Positions 8,785 to 11,254 of a DNA stretch of 31,955 nt are shown here, piece after piece (position 1 is the first letter of the stretch; each line of letters begins with the position of its first letter). Both the position numbers and the translations under genes were made by a program. The DNA is taken from positions 1-31,955 of IMG/VR virus record IMGVR_UViG_3300034356_001137. One strand, given 5' to 3'. Under the pieces are notes generated by a model. That model searched no databases, was not told the origin of the DNA, and saw only the letters and a list, made by a program, of their open reading frames with translations. The DNA is from a virus.

Positions 8785-9009
8785 CTAGGCGGTGAGAGGG
8801 AATTGACCGGCGGGAGAACCGGATTCGGCCCATTCGTCTAAGGCGAACGATTCTATGGCAGAAACAGGAATTGCGGTCATGCCGTCAGTGCCGATATCAC
8901 CAGTCCCTACATCCTCAACGGCGGATTTCATTGCCTCGGCTATGCTTTCTCCGGGCCATTTCCCCCAATAGGTGCCGTTGGCGAAGATTGCGTAGTGCTG
9001 CGTGTGCAT
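8785..9009 (-). CDS. Hypothetical small protein
   Basis: A 74-residue ORF from ATG 9009 behind TAGGAGACACGCC. The start HTQHYAIFANGTYWGKWPGE is followed by SIAEAMKSAVEDVGTGDIGT and an acidic end. The first part (beta-strand, 'GTYWG' turn, then 'A...A...A' helix) looks like a small folded alpha/beta protein of the 'ASSEAEA' type common in phages. Function unknown. It shares a repeated leader with its neighbours. Confidence 0.6.
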   Translation of the reverse strand: MHTQHYAIFANGTYWGKWPGESIAEAMKSAVEDVGTGDIGTDGMTAIPVSAIESFALDEWAESGSPAGQFPLTA

Positions 9010-9050
9010 GGCGTGTCTCCTATGTGTGGTGGCTATGTCGGCAGTGGTTG

Positions 9051-9218
9051 TTATGGCTTCAGCAATCTTTTGAGGCGCGCCCTCGCGTTGGCAAGGCGAA
9101 GCTGGCCGTATTCGTATCGCTTAAAGTCTTTGGCGACCTCGGCACGGTATACATAATCTGACCAAGCACCAACGCGCGATTCAGCATTGGCTAACGCGAT
9201 TTGTCTTGCGCTGAACAT
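9051..9218 (-). CDS. Hypothetical small basic protein
   Basis: A 55-residue ORF from ATG 9218 behind ACAGGAGACACACA. An in-frame upstream extension exists but is low-complexity and skips this ribosome site. The product is one basic alanine-rich helix-turn-helix-like hairpin (ARQIALANAESRVGAWSDYV, then RRYEYGQLRLANARARLKRL-type content with YEYGQLRLANARARLKRLLK). No family is recognised. Confidence 0.55.
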   Translation of the reverse strand: MFSARQIALANAESRVGAWSDYVYRAEVAKDFKRYEYGQLRLANARARLKRLLKP

Positions 9219-9352
9219 TGTGTGTCTCCTGTGTGTGTGGTGGTTATGCCGCTTCTGCGGCGTCTTCTGTGGTGTCGGATTGCAGCGAGTCGAGATAATC
9301 GCACGCCTTGGATGCTGCGCTCGCGGCGGTGAATATTGCTTTCTTGTCAGCA

Positions 9353-10723
9353 TCACATCACGCTACTGATGAAGGTCGCCGCGACTTGCGGGACGATGGC
9401 ATTGCCGTAACCCCGCAGTCGTCCCACGCGGGCGGCAGCACTATTCGCGAGCGGCCCTGCCGTATAGCTTGCCAAAAAATTCATAAGTTCTTGGTGTTGT
9501 GCGCTATCTTGTGACAACTTGGACAAAGCGTCTCCAAGTTCTCGGATAAGTTGTTCTGAACATTCTGATCTTTGTGGTGAACATGAAGCCGACGGTGTGC
9601 TTCGCCGCAGCGTTCGCAAAAAGACTTCGCCATTTTGTGCGCTGCTCGTCTTTTTGCCGTCTTCGACGATCCCCAATTCCCGCGAGTATTCGCACAGGAT
9701 AGCGAGCAAAAACGTCGCTTGCGGAAAACCGATGCGTCCTCCAACCGAGAGCCAAAACGCTTCCGGGCCATTTGATTCCCGCAGCACTCGCAAGGCTTTA
9801 CGCCCAAGTCCAACGCGCCCCTCGACACTTAGCACCTCTTCTTTTTCGTCAGCACGCGCTCTGCGGACTGATCCCAAACACAAGGATAACCCATTAGCCA
9901 TGCGCTGTGAAGCGGGTTCAACTGGCCGCCACTTTCCATCCCGGCAGAAGAGCCAGTCAGCAGCTGCCCACTGGCCGTCAGTCGGGCGGGGCCATGCGGC
10001 GGCAGGTGCGGCTTGTCCCCCAGCGCGTTGACCACGATTGTCGTCATGCTCTCCTGCGATCCCTTCTTGCCGTTGTTGCGGTTCTGATAGCCCCTGCGTG
10101 CTTCCTCTGCTTCCGGCGTCGGCCATCCCGCCATCAGCGAGAAGTCGTTCAGATTGTTCGACCGATCTGGGTTCGACACCCGATCCTCCCCGCCTGACCT
10201 GAAGTCCCGCATCTGCGGCGTCGGCCAGCCCAACAAACCAGAGCCGCTGTCTGATATGCGGCGCGCCGATGCCCGCAGCGCACAGATCAGCCGCCCCGAC
10301 GGCGTAGCCCGATCCTTCCATGTCAGCGCATACAAGGTCGAGCCACCCGAGGCCGTCCTTTGACGCAACCTGCTCGCCAAAGACGACTGGAGGTCGGCAG
10401 ACGCTGATGAGATGGTGCCAGTGCGGCCAAAGGTGCCGCTCGTCAGCTTGCCCTGCTCTTCGGCCTGCCGCGCTGAAAGGCTGGCAAGGGCAGGATCCCG
10501 TCCAGACGTGGCGGTCGTCGGGCCAACCGGCAAGCCGCAGCGCGTGGCTCCAGCCTCCGATGCCTGCGAAGAAGTGGCACTGAGTGTATCGACCCAATCT
10601 ATCTGGGTCCACGTCTCGGATGTCCGTCTCATCTACGTCTCCTGCGGCGATGTGGCCGCCCTTGATTAACTCACGCAGCCACGCAGCCGCCTTCGGGTCG
10701 ATCTCGTTGTAATAGGCGGTCAT
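9353..10723 (-). CDS. C5-cytosine DNA methyltransferase (overlapped in another frame)
   Basis: A 456-residue protein from ATG 10723, overlapping the previous stop (ATGA). Motifs of DNA (cytosine-5) methyltransferases are in order: FFAGIGG (I, ~51-57), SCPCQPFS (IV, catalytic C80), GEQV (VI variant of ENV, ~116-119), RQRLWFVG (VIII, ~158-165) and RVGRLRGYGNAIVPQVA (X, ~432-448). The middle (residues ~168-430) is polar and variable, as expected for a target-recognition region. It includes DWLFCRDGKWRPVEP, which I have seen in related phage methylases. It would modify phage DNA against host restriction. Two other ORFs share most of its length in the same alternative frame (see 9481 and 9829). 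The catalytic motifs argue that this frame is real. Confidence 0.85.
   Translation of the reverse strand: MTAYYNEIDPKAAAWLRELIKGGHIAAGDVDETDIRDVDPDRLGRYTQCHFFAGIGGWSHALRLAGWPDDRHVWTGSCPCQPFSAAGRRAGQADERHLWPHWHHLISVCRPPVVFGEQVASKDGLGWLDLVCADMEGSGYAVGAADLCAAGIGAPHIRQRLWFVGLADAADAGLQVRRGGSGVEPRSVEQSERLLADGGMADAGSRGSTQGLSEPQQRQEGIAGEHDDNRGQRAGGQAAPAAAWPRPTDGQWAAADWLFCRDGKWRPVEPASQRMANGLSLCLGSVRRARADEKEEVLSVEGRVGLGRKALRVLRESNGPEAFWLSVGGRIGFPQATFLLAILCEYSRELGIVEDGKKTSSAQNGEVFLRTLRRSTPSASCSPQRSECSEQLIRELGDALSKLSQDSAQHQELMNFLASYTAGPLANSAAARVGRLRGYGNAIVPQVAATFISSVM
9481..9828 (-). CDS. HNH endonuclease nested inside the methyltransferase gene
   Basis: A 115-residue protein from GTG 9828, which directly follows the TAA of the 9829 ORF and has AGAGG upstream. 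It has a zinc-knuckle start (CECC, residues 13-16, then RRFCSLSCANTRG with C41 and C45). It then has CERC (71-74), the HNH core LHVHHKDQNVQNNLSENLET and the ending LCPSCHKIAH. This is the full beta-beta-alpha-metal (HNH) pattern of small phage and homing endonucleases. It lies entirely within the methyltransferase ORF (residues ~299-414), on the same strand but shifted by one base. Confidence 0.75.
   Translation of the reverse strand: MSRGALDLGVKPCECCGNQMARKRFGSRLEDASVFRKRRFCSLSCANTRGNWGSSKTAKRRAAHKMAKSFCERCGEAHRRLHVHHKDQNVQNNLSENLETLCPSCHKIAHNTKNL
9829..10632 (-). CDS. Overlapping ORF within methyltransferase, 'WLMGxP' type
   Basis: A 267-codon ORF (ATG 10632, stop TAA 9829-9831), same strand as the methyltransferase and shifted by one base. 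The product is not random-looking: ALASLSARQAEEQGKLTSGT, then TLYALTWKDRATPSGRLICA, repeated GWPTP (twice), TASGQLLTGSSAGMESGGQL and NPLHSAWLMGYPCVWDQSA. I recall similar sequences in phage hypothetical proteins near C5 methylases, and 'WLMGxP' occurs in true methylases. It may be an overprinted gene or a conserved shadow of the methylase frame. The start could be downstream, near 10446. No function is known. Confidence 0.4.
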   Translation of the reverse strand: MRRTSETWTQIDWVDTLSATSSQASEAGATRCGLPVGPTTATSGRDPALASLSARQAEEQGKLTSGTFGRTGTISSASADLQSSLASRLRQRTASGGSTLYALTWKDRATPSGRLICALRASARRISDSGSGLLGWPTPQMRDFRSGGEDRVSNPDRSNNLNDFSLMAGWPTPEAEEARRGYQNRNNGKKGSQESMTTIVVNALGDKPHLPPHGPARLTASGQLLTGSSAGMESGGQLNPLHSAWLMGYPCVWDQSAERVLTKKKRC

Positions 10724-10923
10724 GCCACCAACCCCAACTCTGCGGCCTTGCGGCCCCGCAGGTACCAGCCGTAGCCCAGCGGCTCAAACTCGCCATGCCG
10801 CATGTAGCTGGGCACGCTCCTGCAATTGCCCTCGCGCTGGTCACGAACCCCGTCGCGATACGCGCACTCGGTGTAGAAGCAGGGGAAGGTCAGGCTGTCG
10901 ATCTTGGTCATGTCCACCCCCAT
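10720..10923 (-). CDS. Hypothetical small protein (Rmf/Crp-like start pattern)
   Basis: A 67-residue ORF from ATG 10923 (TGATG overlap with the gene before it). The central part (FYTECAYRDGVRDQREGNCR, then YGWYLRGRKAAELGLVA) resembles short 'aYrdG..A...G......P......W..G...' proteins such as ribosome modulation factor and its many phage look-alikes: an aromatic/Gly repeat pattern plus two cysteines. That similarity is weak. Otherwise unknown. It feeds directly into the methyltransferase. Confidence 0.55.
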   Translation of the reverse strand: MGVDMTKIDSLTFPCFYTECAYRDGVRDQREGNCRSVPSYMRHGEFEPLGYGWYLRGRKAAELGLVA

Positions 10924-11099
10924 CACGCGTCAAGAAGTTCAACAGCGTCGCAGTAGTCTGCAAAGGAAGGAGCCTTGGTCACATCCGCGTGGGCCGCCCC
11001 GCCGACTTCGGCGGTAATGAGGGCGAAGATGTTGTGGGCGGCAGCGTTGGCGTCGTAGCCGTTGGCAAAGTGGATGCCGTAGAAGTCCTTGAAGCTCAT
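10923..11099 (-). CDS. Hypothetical small protein, first gene of leftward operon
   Basis: A 58-residue ORF from ATG 11099, with GAGGAGAGACAGAG upstream. A longer in-frame version to 11195 would begin beyond the likely promoter. The sequence is MSFKDFYGIHFANGYDANAA, then AHNIFALITAEVGGAAHADV and PSFADYCDAVELLDA: helical, no recognised family. It is the first gene behind the promoter at 11140-11169. Confidence 0.6.
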   Translation of the reverse strand: MSFKDFYGIHFANGYDANAAAHNIFALITAEVGGAAHADVTKAPSFADYCDAVELLDA

Positions 11100-11139
11100 C
11101 TCTGTCTCTCCTCTGTGGGCCGTTGTAGCCTCGGTCCTA

Positions 11140-11169
11140 GATATGCAATGTGTGACAGTAGGTGTCAAG
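11140..11169 (-). promoter_or_regulatory. Leftward promoter with operator-like inverted repeat
   Basis: On the - strand: a perfect -35 TTGACA (11168-11163), then a 16-17-base spacer and a weak -10 (GCATAT or CATATC, 11146-11140), about 40 bases before the first gene of the accessory operon. The -35 lies in the site CTTGACAC-N5-GTCA (11169-11153), which includes the inverted repeat TGACA-cctac-TGTCA. The same 17-base pattern occurs at 2733-2749. Confidence 0.5.
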
Positions 11170-11254
11170 GCATATCGAGAGGCAGGGCCGATCACGAATT
11201 GTTACAGTGGCTGAAACATTGCGTGAGGCCAGGTTGTTGCGGGATGGGTGGGCA

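Follow-up and report, generated by a model that had tools for sequence, protein, structure and literature searches.

An overprinted gene within phage C5 cytosine methyltransferase genes probably encodes the second chain of a two-chain enzyme

The window, i.e., the whole stretch of DNA that was analysed, is a virus record of 31,955 bases from IMG/VR that contains terminase, head-tail adaptor, major head and tail genes. Its minus strand carries a gene for a C5 cytosine methyltransferase, here called alpha (Table 1), which matched PF00145 (E 1.8e-12) and phrog_363 (E 6.5e-80) in profile searches. Motifs I (FAGIGG), IV (PCQPFS), VIII (GAPHIRQRLWFVG) and X (GYGNAIVP) are read in frame, and the initial annotation was right in regarding this methyltransferase frame as real. 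The start of alpha is joined to the preceding gene by an ATGA overlap. Two small genes located upstream on the same strand (10720-10926 and 10923-11195) show 4-nt start/stop overlaps and have no match in PHROGs; together with the methylase gene they probably form one operon.

Within the methylase gene, and on the same strand, a second ORF (beta) covers alpha residues 31-298 in frame +1. It had been pointed out before as a long ORF that reads like a protein of its own, and its 267 open codons as well as all peptides quoted from it (SARQAEEQGKLTSGTFG, ESGGQLNPLHSAWLMGYPCV and two copies of GWPTP) were found at the locus. Beta proteins are built from a core, a varying count of (G)WPTP/LLPTP repeats and the C-terminal sequence GGQLNPxHSRWLMGLPPEWDxCA; residues 1-49 are open and weakly conserved. 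None of the catalytic methyltransferase motifs is present in beta. The segment GGQLNPLHSAWLMGYP near the end of window beta agrees by eye with the pattern R.LTP....RLMGFP. A 450-bp insertion with an HNH endonuclease ORF that interrupts the methylase gene had escaped the initial annotation.

Table 1. Features of the methyltransferase locus (positions refer to the window).
Feature	Position	Strand	Remarks
alpha, C5 cytosine methyltransferase ORF	9353..10723	-	456 aa including HNH insertion; motifs I-VIII and X
alpha motif VIII, GAPHIRQRLWFVG	10229..10267	-	
alpha motif X, GNAIVP	9389..9406	-	
beta ORF	9829..10632	-	ATG, 267 codons, TAA; +1 frame of alpha
Shine-Dalgarno (SD) AGGAG	10639..10643	-	6 nt ahead of beta ATG
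Conserved core of beta, residues 50-136	10225..10485	-	helix and beta-hairpin in AF2 model; over methyltransferase motifs IV-VIII; methylase synonymous sites almost invariant
First GWPTP repeat of beta	10216..10230	-	
Second GWPTP repeat of beta	10114..10128	-	repeat number differs between relatives
Motif IX-like segment of beta, GGQLNPLHSAWLMGYP (cf. Dcm RRLTPRECARLMGF)	9883..9930	-	
Inserted element, 450 bp = 150 codons	about 9434..9883	-	alpha frame kept; absent from relative L004
HNH endonuclease ORF, 115 aa, GTG start, beta frame	9481..9828	-	PF01844 E 1.3e-5
Stranded remnant of native beta C-terminus (..LPPAWDDCGVTAMPSSRKSRRPSSVA)	9361..9480	-	downstream of HNH ORF

The openness and conservation of such an ORF may merely reflect the conserved methylase protein and GC-rich DNA, in which case beta would be a shadow. 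Taken by itself, the open run of the window is only mildly unusual. When codons of the overlapped region were shuffled synonymously, so that protein sequence and codon usage of the methylase were preserved, 2.7 stops appeared on average (P for zero stops, 0.023), and a +1 run of at least 267 codons anywhere in the alpha gene had a P of 0.08. The length of the ORF in a single window is thus merely suggestive and cannot decide alone; with chance probabilities of 0.02 to 0.08, homologues are needed for a decision. A tblastn search with beta retrieved 218 phage records, every one of them at less than 60% identity, and IMG/VR loci recovered with an alpha query, i.e., not picked for beta, likewise carry a long beta-like +1 ORF. 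Across 81 distinct loci of family 1 and its relatives, a mixture of beta-query and alpha-query loci which, being related, are not independent, frame +1 contains 25 stops as compared to 208 expected from synonymous shuffles, and 74 loci have none at all. Fifteen of the 25 come from L025, where the tested region crosses an intein, and four from L034, whose gene is frame-shifted. The -1 frame of the same set is not depleted (903 stops versus 815 expected). In a second, distant family that was collected by its own methyltransferase query only (76 loci, again related to each other; GC content 37-68%), 8 stops were counted versus 309 expected, and the -1 frame was likewise free of depletion. Within family 1 the depletion is confined in position: methylase codons 1-30, which lie ahead of beta, have 113 stops (90 expected), and codons 39-80 have 0 (19.8 expected). 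E. coli dcm, used as a control, has 14 stops versus 19.4 expected. The free alternative-frame stops that the initial annotation had named as the mark of a shadow are therefore lacking in the homologues (25/208 and 8/309, an 8-fold and a 39-fold depletion), and the pattern persists at the 37% GC of a Microcystis phage.

Each wobble base of alpha takes up the second position of a beta codon; hence, nearly every change that is silent in alpha alters beta. At fourfold-degenerate sites of alpha, wobble is free up to about residue 80, many sites are near-invariant at 82-160, 198-268 and 424-437, and wobble becomes freer again past the end of beta. In relatives that lack the HNH insertion, beta extends over residues 424-437. 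Frozen synonymous sites of the methylase are limited to stretches in which the ORF is conserved. An Rfam search over 9000-11200 gave no match, so no described RNA element stands behind the frozen wobble sites. Alpha-silent, beta-changing divergence among loci retrieved with the alpha query, to which the selection set was restricted, amounted to 2.28 before beta, 1.68 over beta residues 1-49, 0.53 at motifs IV-VIII, 0.21 at the motif IX segment and 1.29 after beta, as judged by a simplified OLGenie-like count in which pairs are non-independent and the target region is often saturated. Beta dNN/dNS in this set, subject to the same limits, was 0.99 before beta, 1.20 at beta residues 1-49, 0.63 (0.39-0.94) at motifs IV-VIII, 0.43 (0.22-0.72) at the motif IX segment, 0.32 (0.19-0.84) at alpha 424-437 and 0.67 after the end of beta. 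In the second family, the ratios for three conserved regions were 0.72, 0.43 (0.30-0.54; target region) and 0.36 (motif IX). The -1 frame gave no comparable signal. Purifying selection on the alternative frame, which the initial annotation had suggested measuring, is visible as ratios of 0.2-0.7 in the conserved regions, with ratios of about 1 or more in the controls and the -1 frame; beta is selected as a protein.

The balance between the two frames is particularly clear in the target region. Six ungapped pairs of equal length were available in family 1 (there were too few in family 2), and in these beta-silent changes were 5.0 (3.1-7.4) times as frequent as alpha-silent ones, with alpha lacking constraint. 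Hence it is beta, and not alpha, that is the conserved protein in this region. Comparison of the products leads in the same direction: alternative-frame proteins score 232 bits against each other but only 82 bits after synonymous shuffling of the methylase (182 versus 74 bits in family 2), and 99.7-99.8% of the pairs exceed the 95th percentile of the shuffles. We conclude that beta is almost certainly a genuine overprinted gene, and that a shadow ORF, which would account neither for the frozen wobble sites nor for these scores, has a negligible chance of being the right explanation.

Beta also has a conserved start. The combination of a Shine-Dalgarno sequence and an ATG in frame +1 at alpha codons 25-45 is present in 51 of 56 loci, with 12.4 expected. 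Of 47 non-redundant loci of family 2, nearly all have the beta ATG 4 nt past that of alpha (alpha MNEL.., beta MSW..). With start codons only 4 nt apart, the two frames of this family (L295-L374) may share one ribosome-binding site. Some loci deviate from the common organization. An intein is inserted in alpha at the catalytic PC|QPF motif of L025 and L136; there, the start of the beta ORF lies within the 3' end of the DNA that encodes the intein, and the beta core is retained from ASLSARQ on. This point of resumption coincides with the boundary that was used in the selection test. In Pseudomonas phage PMG1 (L134), L030 and L034, the methylase or the beta frame is broken by an apparent frameshift, i.e., by natural defects or sequencing errors.

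As judged by comparison of the window with L004, the HNH element was inserted right after the motif IX-like segment of beta. Beta stop and HNH start are contiguous (GAGG..TAA|GTG), and alpha remains open across the HNH ORF (0 stops versus 4.85 expected, P 0.002). The same design is seen in four HNH-bearing lineages, the window type included, where the element closes beta with a WDxxA...K/R-rich tail and a stop, similar to the native WDDCAxTAMxSxxKxRK; the tails read WDQSAERVLTKKKRC in the window type, WDQCAERALANKRNR in L014, WDECAIAALKVSRRK in L058 and WDECAPAPLKKSKEK in L097. In all four the beta stop is directly followed by the HNH start codon (TAA|GTG, TAA|ATG or TGA|ATG), and GAGG, AAGGAGG or AAGGAG is found just ahead of the latter. 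The HNH protein of the window recurs unchanged in L001, L002 and L007, and more diverged ones are present in L014, L058 and L097. Based on this arrangement we propose that a homing-type HNH element entered at the end of the motif IX-like segment, where it would have restored the C-terminus of beta before stopping it, and that it starts the HNH protein on the codon following the beta stop while leaving the alpha frame open. The HNH protein is then probably translated by termination-reinitiation from beta. A selfish element that is fitted to the beta frame provides independent evidence for translation of beta.

Hidden, out-of-frame HNH endonucleases in phage methylases are known under the name of ShiLan domain (Arsenault et al. 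2025; PMC11855218). The element of the window resembles it in being an HNH ORF with a GTG start inside a phage methylase whose frame stays open, and no described intron RNA was found with Rfam. The ShiLan HNH, however, is reported to be located in the third frame and to have no detectable ribosome-binding site, and its translation was left as an open question (PMC11855218), whereas the HNH ORF of the window is in frame +1, has a Shine-Dalgarno sequence and abuts the beta stop. The re-initiation account may thus not extend to ShiLan's own third-frame HNH.

Beta is always paired with alpha: all full-length matches in about 295 loci sit in frame +1 of a C5 methyltransferase ORF. A search for stand-alone homologues of the alternative product, as the initial annotation had recommended, yielded none among these loci, where the only non-overlapping matches are short C-terminal remnants past HNH insertions. 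With a distant beta as query, tblastn reached phages of Vibrio, Microcystis, Synechococcus, Lacticaseibacillus, Streptomyces, Gordonia and Mycobacterium, and in those of these loci that were read beta was again found in frame +1 of the methyltransferase. Beta of Streptomyces phage Heather retrieved 565 records, mainly from actinophages, many of which are annotated as two adjacent DNA methylases. Three beta families are connected by hhalign (E 9e-19, 4e-27 and 9e-8). In Xanthomonas phage PhiXhv-28 both frames are annotated as DNA methyltransferase, and Pseudomonas phage PMG1 bears the label 'Mte8-like'.

The partition of motifs between the two frames differs among lineages. In the actinophages Heather, Koko and Smooch, alpha ends just past motif VIII, and beta contains the core, LLPTP repeats and motifs IX (RLAARFSEWMMGW in Koko) and X (GNGVCTQQA), i.e., methyltransferase motifs that are missing from alpha. 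Motif IX was found in frame +1 in 37, in frame +2 in none and in the alpha frame in 4 of the 41 classifiable loci of the actinophage type, whereas the patterns used left a further 50 unassigned. In all 41, motif VIII is overlapped by a +1 ORF. By contrast to split-type alphas, which end about 12 codons past motif VIII, fused forms (Gudmit, Babsiella, Aggie, B22 and Rabbitrun) have motifs IX and X after motif VIII in the alpha frame; LPTP repeats accompany them in most cases, and a +1 ORF that contains the beta core persists in these forms. L381, L417, L418, L419 and L421 are fused-type actinophage methylases of this sort. In each form seen, the methyltransferase motif set is thus complete across both chains and only its partition differs, with motifs IX and X in alpha or in beta depending on the lineage. 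The persistence of the +1 ORF in fused forms whose alpha has both motifs implies that beta must do more than supply motif IX.

The organization of the split type raises the question of whether beta is made as the C-terminal part of an alpha-beta fusion by ribosomal frameshifting, since a +1 shift past motif VIII, where alpha soon ends and beta runs on to motifs IX and X, would yield a classical methylase. This does not fit the conserved Shine-Dalgarno sequence and ATG far upstream, nor the family 2 ATG located 4 nt past that of the methylase. It also leaves unexplained why methylase codons 39-80 are stop-free in frame +1 and why constraint on beta begins by motif IV. Two shifts would be required for the window type, whose motif X is read in the alpha frame. 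We therefore regard frameshifting as very unlikely, and initiation of beta at its own start as the preferred reading.

Beta matched phrog_1008 (E 4.8e-29) and phrog_31772 (E 8.8e-29), both of which are labelled 'DNA methyltransferase' and appear to represent the beta chain named after the overlapped gene. No match was obtained with beta in sequence searches of Pfam, NCBIfam and PDB, and literature searches of open-licence papers found no paper describing this ORF. The AlphaFold model of window beta, computed from 132 sequences, had a mean pLDDT of 61 and was confident only at residues 79-123 and around 211-226. Foldseek found nothing for this model in the PDB and only relatives in the viral search. 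A split-type beta was modelled poorly (mean pLDDT 48); among its top PDB matches in Foldseek are several DNMT3 catalytic domains at E values of 0.8 and above, which is suggestive at most. When the same type of beta was aligned with E. coli Dcm by hhalign, motifs IX and X were in register, yet the alignment was not significant.

An alternative is that the beta protein is genuine but serves a purpose other than methylation, for example in anti-restriction or host takeover, and happens to be overprinted on a methylase. Such a function is compatible with the lack of significant methyltransferase similarity of window beta by profile or fold and with the retention of the +1 ORF in fused-type methylases. 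However, beta was never seen apart from a methyltransferase in about 295 loci, actinophage beta has motifs IX and X which its alpha lacks, and actinophage annotators label both chains DNA methylase. We thus consider an unrelated function improbable. A role as target-recognition partner, which had been guessed at in the initial annotation, is the best-supported function as judged from the motifs, given that the product of the relatives carries the motifs IX and X absent from the methylase frame.

C5 methyltransferases made of two polypeptides are known. In M.EcoHK31I, the gene of the small chain is nested in that of the large one in another frame. This enzyme, which recognizes YGGCCR and has been termed naturally split (PMC3439449), was reported by Lee, Kam and Shaw in 1995. 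According to PMC3404938, its small polypeptide holds motif IX only, and its large chain has motifs I-VIII and X, with the predicted target-recognition domain (TRD) placed there. The window resembles M.EcoHK31I in that motifs I-VIII and X are in alpha and a putative motif IX is on beta, a likeness that is drawn from descriptions of the motif partition. It differs from it in that beta has 267 aa with PTP repeats, is phage-encoded and is associated with an HNH insertion; moreover, beta is the conserved frame in the overlapped target region here, in contrast to the prediction of the TRD in the large chain. M.AquI (CYCGRG) is split in another manner: one of its chains comprises motifs I-VIII and a portion of the variable region, and the remainder of this region is joined to motifs IX-X in the second chain (PMC3404938). 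Koko, Smooch and Heather show a similar division, since one chain has motifs I-VIII and the other has the target region together with IX and X. Unlike in M.AquI, motif X of the window remains in alpha, and the whole of beta overlaps alpha.

Taking into account the motif content of both frames, we consider it highly probable that beta is the second chain, i.e., the target-recognition and motif IX partner, of a two-chain C5-cytosine DNA methyltransferase. Motifs I-VIII, which serve AdoMet binding and catalysis, would come from alpha, as would motif X at its C-terminus. Beta, initiated at its own Shine-Dalgarno sequence and ATG inside the alpha gene, would contribute motif IX and a PTP-repeat region that replaces the target-recognition domain. 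By analogy with M.EcoHK31I, the two chains may assemble into one enzyme. We infer that beta is translated, binds alpha, recognizes the target and is needed for methylation.

As a two-polypeptide C5 methyltransferase the proposed enzyme is of a known kind; what makes it remarkable is its wide spread, its absence from the curated libraries searched and the HNH element riding on it. We lean towards a picture of coding in three layers, in which an overprinted methylase subunit carries a selfish HNH element that respects two host frames and is re-initiated from beta, the alpha/beta pair ranks among the most widespread long same-strand overlaps in tailed phages, and the split point as well as motifs IX and X shift frames by lineage.

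The alpha/beta arrangement recurs in phages of many bacterial phyla, and beta is undescribed in the curated family libraries that were searched. Most gene finders reject long overlaps on the same strand. For this reason a possibly essential subunit of an enzyme that is very common in phages is left out of annotations or bears the wrong label. Should the enzyme depend on beta, any phage methylase cloned in the form of a single codon-optimized ORF would be dead because recoding of alpha destroys beta. The occurrence of motifs IX and X in either frame makes these loci a natural test bed for the evolution of overlapping genes. Finally, the fitting of the HNH start to the beta stop offers a testable answer, for this HNH type at least, to the published question of how hidden HNH proteins in methylases are translated.
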